54,151 nucleotides of DNA from Verrucomicrobiales bacterium (GTDB lineage Bacteria; Verrucomicrobiota; Verrucomicrobiia; Verrucomicrobiales; V1-33). A program made the translations under genes and the position numbers. The stretch is from contig CANHIJ010000008.1 in assembly GCA_947460575.1 (NCBI GenBank), forward strand, positions 1-54,151. Reading direction: 5' to 3'. Below, piece after piece: positions 44,210 through 52,593 of this stretch. Numbering within the stretch: the first letter of the stretch is position 1; the number at the start of each line of letters is the position of its first letter. Below the pieces are notes generated by a model, which searched no databases, had not been told where the DNA came from, and saw only the letters and a program-made list of their open reading frames with translations.

Positions 44210-45406
44210 GTGAAACTCCGCCACCCACTCCTCTTTGTCGGCCTGCTCGCTCCTGCTTCCCACGCCCACGCAGGAGGAATTCCACAAGAGTATGATTACG
44301 GCTTCCAGGTCTATCAAGAGGACGACGACCGAATCCGGGTGGAGTCGCACTACGTGCGCGGCCAGTGGAGCCTTTTGGAGGGCACAAGTTTTCGGATGCA
44401 GTATTTGAATGATGCCATTTCGGGGGCCTCTCCGACCGGGGCGCTACCGGGCGGGGTCCAGCCCTATGTGGCTAACGTGGAGGACGTCCGCACCGGAATC
44501 CTGGGGGCCTTGTCGCAGCAGTTGGGGCGGCACCGCCTAGAACTGGAAATTTCCCAGAGCAATGAAAACGATTATTTTTCCCAGGGCTACGCGCTGAGTG
44601 ACGCCATTGAGCTCAATCAGAAAAATACCACCCTCACTTTAGGGGTGAATGTGCTCGACGACACCGTAACCGTGCCGGGTTTAGGAGATAAGGGCAAGGA
44701 GAGCTATGATTTCTTCGGCGGAATCAGCCAACTCCTCGACAAGAATACTGAGCTCACCGGGTCGCTTACGCTGGGCTTCAGCCAAGGATATATGAATGAT
44801 CCTTACAAGGTGGTGCAGCGCGATGAGGTGTTCCGCACTCCCGATATGTCCATCGATGCCGGGGACGGAACGGCCATCCTAATTCCAGGGGTGGCGATTC
44901 CGATAACGAATATTTACCGGGAAAACCGCCCCGATAGCCGCTTTCGCCAGGTCCTCCAATTGGGCGGAAGGCACTATTTCGCCGCGGAAAAGGCCGCCCT
45001 CCAAGCCGCGCTCCGCTACACCCACGACGACTACGGCATTTCTTCCGAAATGGCCCAGCTCGAATGGAGGCAGGAACTGGGCGAACACCTCGAGATCGCT
45101 CCCTTTGTCCGCTACTATCACCAGAATGCTGCTAGCTTTTTTGTCAGGGACTTGAATCAAGTCGCGGTCGCCACTCCGGCCGACGATCCCAATGGCAGCG
45201 GTCCAAATTACTCGGCGGACTATCGGTTGTCGTCCTTTGACACCAACAGCATCGGGCTGCGCCTTTTGGCGAAGGTCTCCGAAAACCTCACCCTATCGGC
45301 GACCTATGAACGGTACACCATGAAAGGGGTAGGGGAGGACACTGCGCCCAGTGGCTCGTACCCCAGCGCCAACATGTTGACGGTCGGTCTGAAATTGAAG
45401 TTTTAA
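44210..45406 (+). CDS. DUF3570 outer-membrane beta-barrel protein
   Basis: A 398-residue protein starting at GTG (44210) with a signal peptide (about 1-21, ending HAHAG). The rest is alternating hydrophobic strands with Tyr/Phe aromatic girdles and ends in ...LKLKF, the C-terminal Phe typical of barrels inserted by BamA. The composition and the RVESHYVRGQWSLLEGTSFRM start match DUF3570, a barrel family I recall being encoded with DUF4266, ApbE and thioredoxin genes. It is first of five same-direction genes with gaps of 20-36 bp, so probably one operon. The 277-bp upstream region should hold the promoter, plus a GTCGCC/GGCGAC hairpin near 44127. Role: likely surface-exposed channel or anchoring platform, inferred. 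Confidence 0.82.
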   Translation: MKLRHPLLFVGLLAPASHAHAGGIPQEYDYGFQVYQEDDDRIRVESHYVRGQWSLLEGTSFRMQYLNDAISGASPTGALPGGVQPYVANVEDVRTGILGALSQQLGRHRLELEISQSNENDYFSQGYALSDAIELNQKNTTLTLGVNVLDDTVTVPGLGDKGKESYDFFGGISQLLDKNTELTGSLTLGFSQGYMNDPYKVVQRDEVFRTPDMSIDAGDGTAILIPGVAIPITNIYRENRPDSRFRQVLQLGGRHYFAAEKAALQAALRYTHDDYGISSEMAQLEWRQELGEHLEIAPFVRYYHQNAASFFVRDLNQVAVATPADDPNGSGPNYSADYRLSSFDTNSIGLRLLAKVSENLTLSATYERYTMKGVGEDTAPSGSYPSANMLTVGLKLKF

Positions 45407-45433
45407 ATACAACTCTAACTCACTAAGATTTCT

Positions 45434-46396
45434 GTGAAATCGGAGCCGGTTTTACCAGCAGATGCGCTAGGGATGCGCCACCTCCAATTCCGCGCCTTGG
45501 GGACCGCGTGCCAGATCAAGTTCCGCGAGCGGGAGGACTGCCGGGCCCTGCAATATGCTGCCGAAGCTTTGGACTGGATCGGAAAATTTGAAGCCAAGTT
45601 TTCGCGCTTTCGCGCGGACTCTCTGGTTTCCCAGATCAATGCCAGTGCCGGAAAGCAGTGGGTGGAGACGGATGCGGAGACCGAGCAGATGTTGGACGTG
45701 GCGGAAGGGGTGTTTCGGCTGACAGACGGCATTTTGGACCCGACGCTGTTGCCGCTTTTAGGGGTGTGGGATTGGAAAGTGGTCCCGGCGGCCTTGCCGG
45801 AGCGGAGCCGGGTGCAAAAGGCGCTCTCCTTGGTGGGTTGGCGGCGGGTCGAGCGGCGGCCTGGCGGGATTTTCCTGCCGGAGCCAGGAATGGGGTTAGA
45901 TTTTGGAGGATTTGGCAAGGAGTTGGCAGTGGACGCCCTGGCCAAGTTGGCGCGGAACGCGGGACTCAAGGATGTCCTGGTAGACCTCGGGCGCGATGTC
46001 TATGCGATGGGCGGGAATGGAAAGCAGGCGTTTTGGCACGTGGGGGTGGAGGATGGCCACCATCCCGGGCAATGCTGGGCGGGCTTGGCGGTCACGGAGC
46101 GGGCGGTTTCCTCCTCGGGCAATTACGCCCGGCAATTTACCCATGGCGGCGTGAGCTATGGTCACATCCTCGATCCGCGCACGGGCTGGCCGGTGGCCAA
46201 CGGCATGAAGGCGGTCACGGTGGTGGCCCCGACCTGCCTTGAAGCCGGTATTTACAGCACCGCGGCTTTCGTGCTGGGGACCAAAAAGGGGCTCAAACTA
46301 GCTTCGCGCGCCCCAGGCGTTTCCCTCTGTGCCCAATCCGAGCAGGGCATCGACGGCAGTCGCAACTTCGGCGATTGGCTCGTCAAGGCGAGCTAG
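45434..46396 (+). CDS. apbE: ApbE family FAD:protein FMN transferase, variant
   Basis: A 320-residue protein of the family that links FMN covalently to Ser/Thr in exported redox proteins. Seen: GTACQIKF (23-30), FSRFRADSLVSQIN (56-69), DPTLLPLLGVWDW, LDFGGFGKELAVDAL (155-169), DLGRDVYAMG, and SSGNYARQF with HILDPRTGWPV (244-254). Canonical ApbE has a Mg-binding Asp in A-D-x-x-[ST]-T near the C-terminus; here the segment is AGIYST with Gly272 in that place. The N-terminus shows no signal peptide, unlike lipoprotein ApbE enzymes, so it may act in the cytoplasm. It starts at GTG 27 bp after DUF3570. The candidate target is the Ig-like protein of the same cluster. Confidence 0.88.
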   Translation: MKSEPVLPADALGMRHLQFRALGTACQIKFREREDCRALQYAAEALDWIGKFEAKFSRFRADSLVSQINASAGKQWVETDAETEQMLDVAEGVFRLTDGILDPTLLPLLGVWDWKVVPAALPERSRVQKALSLVGWRRVERRPGGIFLPEPGMGLDFGGFGKELAVDALAKLARNAGLKDVLVDLGRDVYAMGGNGKQAFWHVGVEDGHHPGQCWAGLAVTERAVSSSGNYARQFTHGGVSYGHILDPRTGWPVANGMKAVTVVAPTCLEAGIYSTAAFVLGTKKGLKLASRAPGVSLCAQSEQGIDGSRNFGDWLVKAS

Positions 46397-46432
46397 TCCC
46401 GAAAACATAGCGCTTTTATCGCATTCCATTCT

Positions 46433-46930
46433 ATGAAACAAATCCTCTCCCTCCTGCTCGTTCTCGCGGGCGCCACCCCAGTTTTAACTGCGGCCGACAG
46501 CCTAAAGGCTGGGCAGGCGTTGCCCAAGTTAGCTCCCTTGCTGGCGGGGGCGAAGCTGCCGGACACTTCCGGCAAGGTGGTCCTGGTGGACTTTTGGGCG
46601 TCCTGGTGCGTACCCTGCAAAGCTTCCTTTCCGGCGCTCAATAAGCTGCAAGCCGAGCAGGCCGCCAAGGGCCTGGTTATCATTGCTATTGGGGTCGACG
46701 ACGATGCCGCCGACTTCAAGAAATTTGCTGCCGCGATGCAAGCGAAATTCCTCCTGGTGCACGACGCCGCCCATCAAGCGGTTGGGGCGTTTAACCCTCC
46801 GACGATGCCGACCAGCTACCTCGTGGATCGCAAAGGGGTGATCCGCTATGTGCACAGCGGCTTCAAGGGAGCCAAGACCGAAAAAGAATACACGGCTGAA
46901 ATCGAAACCCTCCTTGGCGAAGCGCGCTGA
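46433..46930 (+). CDS. TlpA/thioredoxin-like periplasmic protein
   Basis: A 165-residue thiol-disulfide oxidoreductase of the TlpA/ResA class. A signal peptide (about 1-20, ending LTAAD) directs export. The redox motif is WASWCVPC (Cys59, Cys62), and the cis-Pro region is TMPTSYLVD. Such proteins usually reduce or keep reduced specific periplasmic cysteines. In this cluster the obvious cysteine substrate is the CGC tail of the DUF4266 lipoprotein encoded 20 bp downstream. It starts 36 bp after apbE. Class is firm; the pairing is inference. Confidence 0.9.
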   Translation: MKQILSLLLVLAGATPVLTAADSLKAGQALPKLAPLLAGAKLPDTSGKVVLVDFWASWCVPCKASFPALNKLQAEQAAKGLVIIAIGVDDDAADFKKFAAAMQAKFLLVHDAAHQAVGAFNPPTMPTSYLVDRKGVIRYVHSGFKGAKTEKEYTAEIETLLGEAR

Positions 46931-46950
46931 ACTTCCTTGCCCCGCATTTT

Positions 46951-47181
46951 ATGAAATACCCACTTCCCTCTCTATTGGCCCTCGGCGCCGTCTTGTCCCT
47001 GAGCAGTTGTGCGGATTCCCTGGTCCGGGTGAAGCCCTATGACCGGGGTAATCTGGCGCGGCACATCATGGCAGATAGCCTGGACCCCCTGCAGACCGCG
47101 ATGACGGAACACGCCTATTTCTCGCGCGAAGCCGGCTTTGGCGGCGGCGGCGTGGGCGGCGGCGGCTGCGGCTGCAACTGA
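46951..47181 (+). CDS. DUF4266 small lipoprotein with Gly-rich CGCN tail
   Basis: A 76-residue exported protein. The signal peptide ends in lipobox LSSC (Cys20), so the mature lipoprotein is only about 57 residues. The conserved DUF4266 core is VRVKPYDRGNLARHIMADS followed by a short PLQTAMTEHAYFSREA segment. The C-terminus is almost only glycine and ends CGCN (Cys73, Cys75). A short anchored peptide with a Cys-x-Cys end could bind a metal ion, be modified, or exchange disulfides with the TlpA-like protein encoded just upstream. The family usually occurs with DUF3570 and ApbE; its biochemical role is unknown to me. Confidence 0.85.
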   Translation: MKYPLPSLLALGAVLSLSSCADSLVRVKPYDRGNLARHIMADSLDPLQTAMTEHAYFSREAGFGGGGVGGGGCGCN

Positions 47182-47215
47182 CCCCATTTTCGCTCCCCCC
47201 TATCCTCAAAATCCT

Positions 47216-48916
47216 ATGAAACGCCAGCTCCCGATTGCGCCCCATGTCCGTCGTCTTTTCGGCCGTTTTGGGCCCCTTATGTTCATCTGCCAGCGCACTC
47301 CCGTGGGGCAGGTGATCGCCCATGAAGCGAGGAGTCTGGGTGTTTCTGGCTTTACCCAGGTTGCCAAATGGAGCGCGACCTTGGTTTCCGGTCTGGGGGC
47401 TTTTGACGCGGTTTCCGGAGCTACGGTGGTCATGCAAATCGCACCCACGCTAGGTTCGGCCACGGTTACGGCGCCTAACGGAAATGCGCTGAGCTTTATT
47501 GTGCAGGTGACCGGGGCCCCATCGACCGCCAAAAGTTGGAAATTGACCGGCACTCTCCCCACTGGTTTGACCCACAGCAATGCCACCAACAGCAACACTG
47601 ACAGCGTCACTGGCATCCCGCGACAGAATGGCAACTTTCCCGTCACCCTGACGGCTTATGAAAAAGCGGGGTACTCCGGTGGTTCGAAGTCGGCCAATTT
47701 TACGATCATGGTTTCCGGTGGCGTGACGCCTCCGGTGATTTCGGTGCAGCCATTGCCGGTTTCCATCAGCGCCGGTGCTTCCGCCGTGCTCAGCGTCGGG
47801 TCCACCGGGGCGGCCTCTTTCCAATGGTATAAGGGGGCCTCTGGAGATATTGCTAGCCCTGTGGCGGGCGCCACCGCGGCCACCTATACGACACCGCCGC
47901 TGACCGCCTCGGCGAGCTATTGGGTTCGGGTTGCGAACTCTGGAGGATCGGTCAATTCGTCCTCGGCGGTGGTCACCGTGATCGACCCGCCCGTCCTCAC
48001 AAGTCAGCCCATGGCGGCGACGATTGATCCGGGCGGATCGGCCCTCTTGAGCGTGGCCGCCACCGGCGCAGCGCCCTCGTTTCAGTGGTATGCGGGGGAG
48101 TCTGGGGACACCGCGAATCCCATGCCTAACGCGACAGGCGCGACCTGGACGACGCCAGTTCTCGCGGAGACGGCGCGGTTCTGGGTCATGGTGCGCAATG
48201 CCGCGGGAAGCGTCAATTCGAGCACGGCGGTGGTGACGGTGCGGGTGCCCCCGGCGATTCTTTCCCAGCCGTTGGGGACGAGGGTGGCGATGGGCAGCGC
48301 GGCCACTCTCAGTGTGGCGGCCTCTGGTACGGGGTTGGCTTTTCAGTGGTATCTCGGGGACTCCGGCGATACCGCTCATCCCGTGGCGGGGGCCACGGGA
48401 GCTTCGTTGATGGCCACCGCCACCAGCGCTGCCGCCAGTTATTGGGTGAAGATCAGCAACTCCGCTGGGTCCGTCCACTCCAATGGGGCGGTCGTTAAAG
48501 GGTTTGATACTTTTGCGAGCTGGGCCGCGGGCCGCTTCACGGGAGCGCAGTTGGGTGACCCTCTCATTTCCGGCGCGGCGGGAGACCCGGACGCCGACGG
48601 ATGCACCAACGAACAAGAGTTTGTCTACGGCACGGCGCCGCTATCCTCCAACCCGCCGCTGGTCTTGGGGGTGGCGTCCGCCGGGGCTCCCCTGTCGCTG
48701 AGTTTTGCCGCCGCGGCCGCCAGCGGGACTGGTTATGTCGGAATCACGCGGCATTACGCGTTAGAGTGCTCTCCCAGCCTGGGAAGCGGCAGCCAGTGGT
48801 CGGTCTGTTATGGATTTGCGGATATCGTCGGGCTAGGACAAGAGGTCCGGTTTACGGCGGCGGCGGGTCCCGCCGCTAACTTCTACCGAGTCAAGGTATG
48901 GCTGGTTTCGGAATAG
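47216..48916 (+). CDS. Ig-like repeat surface protein with an ApbE-type flavinylation motif
   Basis: A 566-residue protein. The N-terminus (to about 60) has no classic signal peptide, although a hydrophobic patch (GPLMFIC) occurs near 19-25. Residues 64-70 read DAVSGAT, matching the D-x-x-[ST]-G-A-T acceptor motif of FMN-modified proteins such as NqrC and RnfG; Thr70 would carry FMN. A putative-Ig domain (about 80-175) follows, then three Ig-like repeats, each with PxISxQP-type starts and FQWY cores (about 180-440). Near 455-500 is a GDPDADGCTNEQEF motif, a calcium-binding type common in PVC surface proteins. It is last in the apbE cluster, 34 bp after DUF4266. Flavinylation is inferred from motif and context. 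Confidence 0.75.
   Translation: MKRQLPIAPHVRRLFGRFGPLMFICQRTPVGQVIAHEARSLGVSGFTQVAKWSATLVSGLGAFDAVSGATVVMQIAPTLGSATVTAPNGNALSFIVQVTGAPSTAKSWKLTGTLPTGLTHSNATNSNTDSVTGIPRQNGNFPVTLTAYEKAGYSGGSKSANFTIMVSGGVTPPVISVQPLPVSISAGASAVLSVGSTGAASFQWYKGASGDIASPVAGATAATYTTPPLTASASYWVRVANSGGSVNSSSAVVTVIDPPVLTSQPMAATIDPGGSALLSVAATGAAPSFQWYAGESGDTANPMPNATGATWTTPVLAETARFWVMVRNAAGSVNSSTAVVTVRVPPAILSQPLGTRVAMGSAATLSVAASGTGLAFQWYLGDSGDTAHPVAGATGASLMATATSAAASYWVKISNSAGSVHSNGAVVKGFDTFASWAAGRFTGAQLGDPLISGAAGDPDADGCTNEQEFVYGTAPLSSNPPLVLGVASAGAPLSLSFAAAAASGTGYVGITRHYALECSPSLGSGSQWSVCYGFADIVGLGQEVRFTAAAGPAANFYRVKVWLVSE
47405..47425 (+). other. Putative FMN attachment site (DAVSGAT)
   Basis: Encodes Asp64 to Thr70 of the Ig-like protein. 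ApbE enzymes attach FMN to the last Thr (or Ser) of D-x-x-[ST]-G-A-[ST] in NqrB/C, RnfD/G and FMN_bind proteins. An apbE gene lies about 1 kb upstream in the same direction. Confidence 0.5.
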
Positions 48917-49077
48917 CGCCGCGAACGCTTTGGCCGGGGGCACTTCGCCGAGCCTTGGGTCCTTTCGCGCCCGCTTGAACCTCCCCGGGCCGCAGGGAAT
49001 AGTGTTTTGGACGACTGAAGCACTCCGCCTCCGGCGCGGCGGAACCGTTGCTTGACCCTGATTTCGCCACCACCCCC

Positions 49078-49767
49078 ATGAAAGTTTTGCTCGTTGAGGA
49101 TGAACCTGATCTGGGCGTTCAGGTGTCGCGGGCTTTGACTGCGGCGGGGCACGTGGTGGAGCTGCGCCGGGATGGGACCGCCGCCCTAGCGGCTTTGAAG
49201 GTGGAGCATTTTGAAGCCCTGGTGCTCGATGTCAACCTGCCGGGCTGCAGTGGCCTGGATGTCTTGCAGGTGGCCCACGCGCTGCGCCCTCGTCCGGTTG
49301 TGCTGCTGCTGACGGCCCGGGCCGAGGTGGGGGACCGCGTGGCCGGACTCAATGCCGGGGCGGATGATTACCTGACTAAACCATTTGCGATGGCGGAACT
49401 GCTGGCGCGAGTCAGCAGCATGGGCCGGAGAGGTCAGGGCGGCGCCGCCGAGAGCGTGCTTCCGGGCGGCAGCTTGCGCTTAGACGCCCAGCGCAGGCGC
49501 GTGACCCTCGGCGGGCAAAGCATCGCTCTTTCCCCCCGCGAGTTTGATTTGTTAGCAATCTTCATGCAGGCTCCGGGGCGGGTTTTCAGCCGGGATGAAT
49601 TGTGTGAGCGGATTTGGGAGCGATCGCACGACTACGATACGCGGACGGTGGAAATCTATATTATGCGGCTGCGCAAGAAGCTCGACGGGCCGGGGGCGCC
49701 GACCATTGAGACGGTGCGGGGATGCGGCTACACCATGAAACTGCCTTGCGGCGGCCCTGGCGGCTGA
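49078..49767 (+). CDS. OmpR/PhoB-type response regulator
   Basis: A 229-residue DNA-binding regulator. The receiver domain (1-120) has the acidic pair in VEDEPDL, phosphoacceptor Asp51 (LVLDVNLPG), the conserved Thr (LLLTARAE) and Lys (DDYLTKPF). A winged-helix domain (about 130-225) with LSPREFDLLAIFMQAPGRVFS and the EIYIMRLRKKLD recognition region follows. The ATG at 49078 is preferred over a TTG ten codons upstream. It forms a pair with the histidine kinase gene 58 bp downstream. It follows the flavinylation cluster by about 160 bp and could regulate it; not shown by sequence. Confidence 0.93.
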   Translation: MKVLLVEDEPDLGVQVSRALTAAGHVVELRRDGTAALAALKVEHFEALVLDVNLPGCSGLDVLQVAHALRPRPVVLLLTARAEVGDRVAGLNAGADDYLTKPFAMAELLARVSSMGRRGQGGAAESVLPGGSLRLDAQRRRVTLGGQSIALSPREFDLLAIFMQAPGRVFSRDELCERIWERSHDYDTRTVEIYIMRLRKKLDGPGAPTIETVRGCGYTMKLPCGGPGG

Positions 49768-49825
49768 GGGGATGAGGGGGGCGCGACTTCCTTGAAAGGG
49801 GGCCTGGCTGGGGCGAGATTGGACG

Positions 49826-51181
49826 ATGCGCGCTTGCTCCTTGAAGCTTCAATTTGCCCTGCTTTCGGCGGTTCTGGCGGTGTTGGCGCTGGGTTTGGCG
49901 GGGGCGGTATTGTTGCCGGTGGTGCGCCATCGCCAATTGTACGACCTGGATGAACAACTCGCCCGGGACGCCGCGGTGCTGCAGGGCATTTTTGCTGCCA
50001 AGGAAGCGGAGATTCTCGCCGGGACTCCCGGCGTGGTGGCGGGCCTTTTGCCCCCGAATTTGCGGCTGCGCTATCTGGAGGTGGAAGCCCTTGACGGTCG
50101 GGTGCTCCACCGCTCCGGCAACCTGCGGGGACTAGACCTAACTGGAGAGGTGGGGCGGGCGCACCCCGCCACCATTGCCGGGCAGGCAGCGCGCCTGCGC
50201 ACGGCGCGCCAGGGCGAGTTGGTGCTGCACGTGGGGACCCGCCTGGGCACGCTGGATAAAACGCAGCGCGACTTGGCGATGAGCTTGTTGACGGTCCTGC
50301 CGCTAGTGGTGCTCGGGGCCTTTGGCGGGGGCTTGCTGTTGGGGCGGCGCGCCGTGCGGCCGATCGCCGCGCTCACCGCCGCCGCGGAAACCATCAGCAC
50401 CGAGCGGCCGGGGGACCGCTTGCCGGTACCCCCAACCGGCGATGAAGTGGCTCGACTAACGGAAGTTCTAAACCGGAGCTTCGATCGCCTGCAGCGCGCC
50501 TATGAGGCCGCGGCGCGTTTCTCGGCCGACGCCTCCCATCAGCTCAAGACTCCCCTGGCAGTGATGCGGGCCGGGGTTGATGCCCTAGGCAAAATGGGCG
50601 GCCAAGTCCCGGAAGTGCAGGCGGAGGTCGAGGTGCTGCGGCGGCAATCCCGCCGCCTAACGACGATGGTGGACGATCTGCTCTTGTTGGCGCAGGTCGA
50701 TGCGGGGCGCTTGGAATTGGAGAGCGGGCCATCGGATTTACAGCCCCTGTTGGAGCGGGTTTGGGAAGACCTGGAGGCGCTGGCGGCGGAGCAAAATGTG
50801 TCGGTGGAGCGCTCCTGGCCAGAGGCCTTGCCCTGTCATGCGGATCCGCGCCGGGTCGCGCTCATTTTGCAAAATTTGTTAGAAAATGCCATTAAATACA
50901 CCCCGCCGGGCGGGCGCATTCGCGGCGTGGCCACGGCGGGCGCGGCGGGGGTGGAATGCCGCATCGCCAACACCGGCGCGCCGATTGCCGCGGCCCAGTG
51001 CGAAGCCATATTTGAGCGGTTTCACCGCAGCGGCGCGGGCGAAAACGTCCCTGGCCACGGTCTGGGGCTGAACATCGCGCGGGCCTTGGCGCGGGCTCAC
51101 GGAGGGGATTTGTTTTTGGATAGGGATGAAGCGGGGTGGACGACTTTTGTCCTGCGGCTGCCGCGGGCCCCTGCAGGCTAG
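49826..51181 (+). CDS. Sensor histidine kinase
   Basis: A 451-residue inner-membrane kinase. Two hydrophobic segments (about 9-32 and 153-172) enclose a periplasmic sensor loop of about 120 residues, followed by a HAMP domain, the HisKA dimerisation helix with phosphoacceptor His238 (SHQLKTPLAVM) and an ATPase domain with N box NLLENAIKYTPPG and GHGLGLNIARALARAHGG. All core motifs look intact, in contrast to the PAS protein at 24031-26928. It acts on the regulator encoded just upstream. The signal is not deducible from the loop. Confidence 0.93.
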   Translation: MRACSLKLQFALLSAVLAVLALGLAGAVLLPVVRHRQLYDLDEQLARDAAVLQGIFAAKEAEILAGTPGVVAGLLPPNLRLRYLEVEALDGRVLHRSGNLRGLDLTGEVGRAHPATIAGQAARLRTARQGELVLHVGTRLGTLDKTQRDLAMSLLTVLPLVVLGAFGGGLLLGRRAVRPIAALTAAAETISTERPGDRLPVPPTGDEVARLTEVLNRSFDRLQRAYEAAARFSADASHQLKTPLAVMRAGVDALGKMGGQVPEVQAEVEVLRRQSRRLTTMVDDLLLLAQVDAGRLELESGPSDLQPLLERVWEDLEALAAEQNVSVERSWPEALPCHADPRRVALILQNLLENAIKYTPPGGRIRGVATAGAAGVECRIANTGAPIAAAQCEAIFERFHRSGAGENVPGHGLGLNIARALARAHGGDLFLDRDEAGWTTFVLRLPRAPAG

Positions 51182-51405: not shown

Positions 51406-52593
51406 ATGAATTGCCTGCGCCCCTCTCGCCTGCGCTGCGCCGCCGCCTTGGTGGGGTTGGCCGCGCTGTGGCCGGGGTCGCTCGGCGCGGCCCGCGCGGC
51501 CCCGGATTTGGATGGGGATAGCATTCCGAACATCGTGGACCTCGACGTGGATAGCGACGGCATCCCCAATGCGCTGGACGACAACATCGATGGCGGTTTT
51601 GCCAAAATGGGACCCTATTTGGGCACCTATATTGGGGACCATGTGGACAACCGCAACGCGGCTGAATGGGACATCGACGGCGACGGGCGCAATGATGATT
51701 GGCTCGGGGAGGACGATATCGACGGCGACGGCTACGACGACGACGACGCCGCGGAAATGGACCTCGATGGAGACGATAGGTTTATTGGATCCACGGAGGA
51801 GGGCGACCGCGCTGGCCCTGGCCGGAGCGACGGAGAAGGCGAAGACGACAACAAAGACGGGGGCGGCGCTGCCGCCGACGGCTCTCGGGACCCTTCTGGG
51901 AAGCAGACGCTTCGCCAGGAACTCACCGCCCGCCCCGCGGCTCCGGGCGAGGCCATGGCCCGGGCGCATATTCACCTGCGGGATTCCGGCAGCGTGGTGT
52001 TTGCGGTAGCGATCGCGCACGGTTGGGCGGGAACCTATGGAGTCCGGGTGGGGGAGGTGGCCAGGGGAGTGATCACGATTGCGGCGGGTGAGAGCGCGGG
52101 GCAGCTGGCTTTTGACACGCATCCCGATGAGCCCGGGGAGGGGCTGCTCGACTTCAACCCTGCGGGTTTGTCAGTGCGCATTTTCCGTGGCGCGGAGGAA
52201 TGGTTCGCGGGTCCAGTGCCGACGCCGCGCGCTGTGGGCGAGGGAGCCCGCGGGTGGGCGGCGGAGTTTAGGGGAAGCCTGGCGGCCGCGCCCGAGGCCG
52301 CGGGCGAGATGGAATTGGGGGTATCCCATGCCGGGGAAGTGGCCCTGGTGCTCGCGGTCAGGCATGTGGCCGCCGCCGCCTATGATGTGAGGATTGGGGG
52401 CGTCATCCGCGGCCAAATGGCCATTTTGCCGGGCGCGGAGCGCGTTTCCACCCTTTTGACATTTGTCGCTGATCCGCTCCGGCGGGGGGAAGCGCGGCTC
52501 GACTTTGAAGCGGCCCATCAGGAGGTGGCGATTGAAAAGGGCGGGGTCGTCTACTTGTCAGGGATGAGCCCAGGGCCGCCATCCGGGCCTTGA
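51406..52593 (+). CDS. Secreted calcium-binding-type (DxDxDG) protein with a duplicated domain
   Basis: A 395-residue protein with a signal peptide (about 1-30, ending AARA). Residues about 33-150 contain repeated D-x-D-x-D-G motifs (DLDGDSIPN, DVDSDGIPN, DIDGDGRND, DIDGDGYDDDD, DLDGDD) of thrombospondin type-3/EF-hand kind, expected to bind Ca2+. The remainder is two similar copies of an approximately 90-residue beta-rich unit: compare YGVRVGEVARGVITI with YDVRIGGVIRGQMAI. Upstream lie about 220 bp with an AT-rich end, so it probably has its own promoter. It follows the two-component pair in the same direction. Function unknown. Confidence 0.75.
   Translation: MNCLRPSRLRCAAALVGLAALWPGSLGAARAAPDLDGDSIPNIVDLDVDSDGIPNALDDNIDGGFAKMGPYLGTYIGDHVDNRNAAEWDIDGDGRNDDWLGEDDIDGDGYDDDDAAEMDLDGDDRFIGSTEEGDRAGPGRSDGEGEDDNKDGGGAAADGSRDPSGKQTLRQELTARPAAPGEAMARAHIHLRDSGSVVFAVAIAHGWAGTYGVRVGEVARGVITIAAGESAGQLAFDTHPDEPGEGLLDFNPAGLSVRIFRGAEEWFAGPVPTPRAVGEGARGWAAEFRGSLAAAPEAAGEMELGVSHAGEVALVLAVRHVAAAAYDVRIGGVIRGQMAILPGAERVSTLLTFVADPLRRGEARLDFEAAHQEVAIEKGGVVYLSGMSPGPPSGP

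Follow-up and report, generated by a model that had tools for sequence, protein, structure and literature searches.

Why would a gene cluster built around an FMN transferase include an Ig-repeat protein, and could that protein be one of the enzyme's substrates? This question is raised by five plus-strand open reading frames at 44210-48916 of the window (the whole 54,151-nucleotide stretch of Verrucomicrobiales DNA analyzed here), separated by intergenic gaps of 27, 36, 20, and 34 bp. The first-pass annotation had described them as co-directional genes for a DUF3570 barrel, an ApbE-type transferase, a thioredoxin, a DUF4266 lipoprotein, and an Ig protein, and both the reading frame coordinates and the Pfam matches agree with this description. 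It had overlooked a response regulator and a histidine kinase (49048-51181) that follow the Ig gene on the same strand, the former probably being the regulator of the cluster. The features of the locus are as follows.

44210..45406, plus strand: DUF3570 outer-membrane beta-barrel, 398 aa (Pfam PF12094, 1e-60)
44411..44431, plus strand: DAISGAS, flavinylation site of DUF3570, residues 68-74, acceptor Ser74 (alignment)
45434..46396, plus strand: ApbE-type FMN transferase, 320 aa (PF02424, 1e-67)
46247..46249, plus strand: Gly codon replacing the Mg-ligand Asp of canonical ApbE (aligned with PDB 4xdt and 4xdr)
46433..46930, plus strand: TlpA/ResA-like periplasmic thioredoxin, 165 aa (Pfam/NCBIfam; Redoxin/AhpC-TSA, about 1e-20)
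46607-46618, plus strand: CVPC of the thioredoxin
46951..47181, plus strand: DUF4266 lipoprotein, 76 aa (PF14086, 7e-20)
47167-47178, plus strand: CGCN, C-terminal end of DUF4266
47216-48916, plus strand: Ig protein, 566 aa counted from ATG (Pfam Ig_7, 4e-26)
47216..47425, plus strand: N-terminal module of the Ig protein, residues 1-70 (profile A2)
47405..47425, plus strand: DAVSGAT, proposed second flavinylation site, acceptor Thr70 (conservation of position 7)
47426..48916, plus strand: beta-sandwich domain and three Ig_7 repeats (Pfam; AF2 model and Foldseek)
49048..49767, plus strand: OmpR-type response regulator (Pfam; likely ATG at 49078)
49826..51181, plus strand: HAMP/HisKA sensor histidine kinase (Pfam)

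A published flavinylation set and a fifth gene

Clusters of DUF3570, ApbE, thioredoxin, and DUF4266, four of the window's five genes, form a published set that also features VIT1 iron transporters, and the cognate ApbE has been shown, with mutants, to flavinylate DUF3570 in an assay that used the ApbE of Chlorobium luteolum (Méheust et al. 2021, eLife, PMC8238504). The earlier statement that these families co-occur with no defined function was hence too strong, since they constitute a published flavinylation system. Within the open-access library searched, DUF3570 or DUF4266 is named in no other paper. The window agrees with the published clusters in bringing together DUF3570, ApbE, a thioredoxin-like protein, and a DUF4266 with a C-terminal CxC, as well as in the flavinylation site of DUF3570, [ST]GA[ST]. 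However, the published DUF3570 has two such sites and the window copy has one, no second site being found in it. Moreover, an adjacent DsbD is optional in the published clusters, whereas none was found among the cluster neighbors examined in the window; the one DsbD_TM match above cut-off in this genome lies on another contig. Finally, the window adds the adjacent two-component genes and an Ig-repeat protein with a site of its own. It is this fifth gene that is new, the other four being already published. Judged from sequence, the locus is probably a flavinylation cluster of the DUF3570/DUF4266 type that has one further component, the Ig protein, serving as a second substrate of ApbE.

The remaining parts of the locus fit the earlier description. 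DUF4266 has a lipobox (LSSC), a mature chain of 57 residues, and a CxC present as CGCN at its C terminus, GCGCN being invariant in an alignment of 16 sequences. A close relative from a metagenome-assembled genome (L207) has the same order of all seven genes, with a DUF3570 that is 89% identical; response regulator/histidine kinase pairs adjoin many related clusters, and the named loci among the relatives belong to Verrucomicrobiota. Just 3' of the histidine kinase (window 51406-52593) lies a protein of Asp-rich, calcium-binding-like repeats resembling thrombospondin type 3, for which Pfam gave no match.

The barrel and its transferase

The first-pass annotation proposed the Ig protein as the flavin carrier and missed DAISGAS in DUF3570. 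This assignment is incomplete, as DUF3570 is itself an established ApbE substrate (PMC8238504) and the window copy carries the site; the barrel, and not the Ig protein alone, is thus expected to carry flavin. Most DUF3570s linked to such clusters align to [DNS]xx[STAV]G[AS][ST]P at this position. The AF2 model of the protein (pLDDT 94) is an all-beta barrel with Foldseek matches to the OmpG, FadL, and Occ barrels, consistent with the earlier placement at the outer membrane, and counting the strands and applying the usual rule on loop lengths would place the flavin site where the third strand ends on the outer side.

Some relatives differ in this gene. In clusters that lack the N-terminal module of the Ig protein (L081-L090, L239, L280), DUF3570 often holds a low-complexity insert of 124-159 aa, and these inserts carry extra [GA]A[ST]P sites, possibly a second flavin position. 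We considered and dropped the idea that a second DUF3570 site and the module strictly replace each other: clear second-site inserts occur in module-less loci, yet many loci have neither. In a divergent DUF4266/DUF3570-like set (L091, L092, L093), ApbE is canonical (ADAL) and bears a signal, and the search for a flavinylation site in DUF3570 found none. In L088 (10679-12087), the cluster is complete except that DUF3570 is broken into three reading frames, likely a decayed or misassembled copy. In the module-less cluster L065 (9064-13722), the gene after DUF4266 encodes a protein of 1552 aa whose N-terminal region has a sequence like CxxCH (CITCH).

The window ApbE belongs to its family by both fold and sequence (PDB 4xdt, 8e-33). 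At the position of the Mg-ligand Asp (DAD/ADAL motif), the window ApbE has Gly, as do 136 of 143 linked ApbEs, which read AG and not AD. The same position is Ala in the aligned PDB 4xdr, which we take to be the D284A mutant of ApbE, with activity lost. The window ApbE has no N-terminal hydrophobic segment, export signal, or lipobox, and the score-defined main group of linked ApbEs (n = 119) contains a single possible hydrophobic N terminus; most of the few linked ApbEs that do have the Asp also have a hydrophobic N terminus. The Gly-type, signal-less form is nearly universal in DUF3570/DUF4266-linked copies (L061-L286), proteobacterial ones included. ApbEs located in the cytosol are known, an export signal or lipobox being typical but not universal. 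The genome of the window holds two further ApbE genes, and no FMN_bind domain was found in it. Both features of the linked ApbEs, the missing signal peptide and the Gly for the Mg-ligand Asp, count against a flavinylated Ig protein. The former also makes the extracytoplasmic ApbE step assumed earlier doubtful: flavinylation might take place in the cytosol before export or, alternatively, in the periplasm if ApbE were exported by an unrecognized route.

A conserved putative acceptor at the end of the module

The first 70 or so residues of the Ig protein form a module with a basic N terminus, a helix containing LLQRTP (Q in 71/76, P in 76/76), a hydrophobic helix, and then [DHN]xx[SATV]-G-A-[TS]. 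Neither Pfam nor PDB yielded a match to it, and NCBIfam gave one marginal match in one member (E = 0.013). Since basic residues cluster ahead of the hydrophobic helix, toward the N terminus, the sequence suggests a topology with the N terminus in and the motif out; the topology was not taken from the AlphaFold model, whose confidence around the motif is low (pLDDT 40-50). Residues 71-170 are modeled by AF2 as a beta-sandwich with Foldseek matches to Ig and S-layer proteins. Among relatives, the domains downstream of the module vary (Ig, PKD-like, NHL repeats), and total length ranges from about 400 to 2,571 aa.

To map its distribution, the first 70 residues were used as a profile (A2) in a search of 384 genomes of the class. 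The module was found in 49 of them and DUF4266 in 62, all 49 module genomes being among the 62 (hypergeometric P about 3e-50). These genomes are a sample in which relatives are not independent, a kinship that the genus-level test addresses in part: the module occurs in 28 of 39 DUF4266 genera among 171 (P = 1.6e-23). An iterated profile added a few more DUF4266 genomes, and sampled DUF4266 loci from outside Verrucomicrobiota yielded no module. Most copies lie directly 3' of DUF4266, others follow the response regulator and histidine kinase, are arranged in tandem, or lie away from the cluster; in L072, L080, L162, L167, L180, and L186, extra copies outside the cluster keep the motif. In L171, L172, and L174, apbE, alone or with tlpA, adjoins a module gene, and DUF3570 is missing.

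The DAVSGAT that the first-pass annotation had noticed ending at Thr70 is confirmed at residues 64-70 as the sole strict D-x-x-[ST]-G-A-[ST] match in the Ig protein, and this protein and DUF3570 hold the only two strict matches in window open frames of at least 100 aa. Over 125 distinct copies, whose modules share about 22-45% identity, the consensus is [DHNQ(E)]-[AST]-[VL]-[ASVT]-[GA]-A-[TS]. Position 7, the putative acceptor, is Thr in 101 copies and Ser in 24, with no other residue; position 6 is Ala in 124; position 5 is Gly in 112, Ala in 11, and Arg in 2; position 1 is always D, H, N, Q, or E; and a Gly stands two residues ahead of the motif in 121. Entropy at positions 5-7 is 0.07-0.71, compared with 2.7-3.1 just downstream, the residue after the acceptor being free (3.1 bits versus 0.71). 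The canonical Asp is missing in about half of the copies, as is the canonical Ser/Thr at position 4, which speaks against the flavin reading; some of the most divergent copies present the full DAVSGAT or DAVSGAS. The earlier proposal had been tied to conservation of DxxSGAT in apbE-linked homologs; it survives, because Thr/Ser is kept in every copy of the module (125/125), although the strict motif gives way to [DHNQ]xx[SATV][GA]A[TS]. Together with the restriction of the module to cluster genomes in the class sample, this supports the Ig protein as a flavin carrier.

Other ApbE substrates (FMN_bind, DUF2271, NqrB/RnfD) share with the Ig protein a short acceptor sequence resembling D-x-x-[ST]-G-A-[ST]. 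Neither FMN_bind nor DUF2271 was found in the Ig protein, however; its site directly follows an N-terminal hydrophobic helix, and its relatives often have His at position 1 and Ala at position 4. When DUF3570 and module were contrasted at position 4, 8 cases were concordant, none discordant, and 13 unchanged, a comparison confounded by phylogeny. Covariation at this position (Fisher P = 1e-5) was rejected as proof of a shared enzyme, as close relatives lack a joint change, and is weak and suggestive only.

Flavin attachment, signal cleavage, or docking

The best-surviving alternative, though an unlikely one, is that the motif is nothing but a signal peptidase I cleavage site (SGA|T) ending an unusually long signal sequence, with the Ig protein exported free of flavin and its gene clustered for another reason. 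Signal peptidase I follows the -3,-1 rule and needs neither Thr/Ser at +1 nor a polar residue at -6. Accordingly, A/S/V/T at -3 (125/125), A at -1 (124/125), and a hydrophobic stretch preceded by basic residues all agree with cleavage, which at SGA|T would cut Thr70 off from its recognition sequence, but the conserved Thr/Ser at +1, the polar D/H/N/Q at -6, and the preceding Gly (121/125) are left unexplained. The layout, a long N-terminal extension ahead of a hydrophobic core, is also that of autotransporter extended signal peptides; yet no autotransporter domain was found, and within the class sample only genomes with the ApbE cluster contain the module. Neither this exclusive co-occurrence nor the apbE-module pairs without DUF3570 are accounted for by cleavage. 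We favor flavinylation because the DUF3570 site, outside any signal context, likewise accepts S, T, A, or V at position 4, and because signal peptidase does not explain the Thr/Ser and the polar residue at position 1. The two processes might also combine, with modification coming before cleavage or preventing it.

It seems less probable still, and rather improbable overall, that the module is a flavin-free binding or sorting tag for the barrel, DUF4266, or the thioredoxin, its Thr/Ser serving for docking. Exclusive co-occurrence, tandem copies, copies away from the cluster, and a Q..P of LLQRTP conserved as strongly as the motif would suit such a tag, but the seven-residue site fits the motif that the neighboring enzyme recognizes in its substrates, even at loci where apbE stands without DUF3570. 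A chance match in a Ser/Gly/Ala/Thr-rich protein, for which one might cite bare GAT within the Ig repeats (SPVAGAT, HPVAGAT) and the strict motif in 1% of shuffles (one match, P = 0.011, weak evidence from a single sequence), has next to no probability for an N-terminal site outside the repeats and was ruled out by conservation across 125 copies.

Labeling of the Ig module by ApbE is thus supported at the level of sequence, and a mechanism can be sketched. ApbE would move FMN from FAD onto Ser74 of the barrel and Thr70 of the Ig protein, whose module would act as signal or membrane anchor, so that the acceptor would come immediately behind the hydrophobic helix and just ahead of the exported Ig domains. 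A DsbD-type protein might feed the thioredoxin, electrons then passing from the thioredoxin/DUF4266 thiol pair to the flavins carried by both the Ig protein and the barrel in the outer membrane. This flavin attachment, topology, and electron route are what we infer; the surface flavins may in turn reduce or oxidize an external substrate at the cell surface, possibly a metal. Hints of a link to metals are anecdotal: judged from translations, a gene next to L064 looks like RND efflux and one next to L085/L086 like a copper ATPase, and VIT1 iron transporters figure in the published clusters.

It is tempting to speculate, as a tentative extension that we hold to be rather less likely than its converse, that the module is a portable flavin tag whose carriers, within and outside the cluster, are flavinylated by the signal-less ApbE lacking the Mg-ligand Asp, perhaps while still in the cytosol, making large Ig-repeat surface proteins redox-active. 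The linked ApbE subfamily, with Gly and no export signal, raises the question of where exported proteins receive their flavin. If the Ig protein is indeed flavinylated, it would represent a further class of ApbE substrate, whose defining feature is a short module at the N terminus instead of a domain that binds flavin; a redox cluster that has been described but not explained would gain a likely surface-exposed partner, and a widespread protein-modification system a new kind of substrate.
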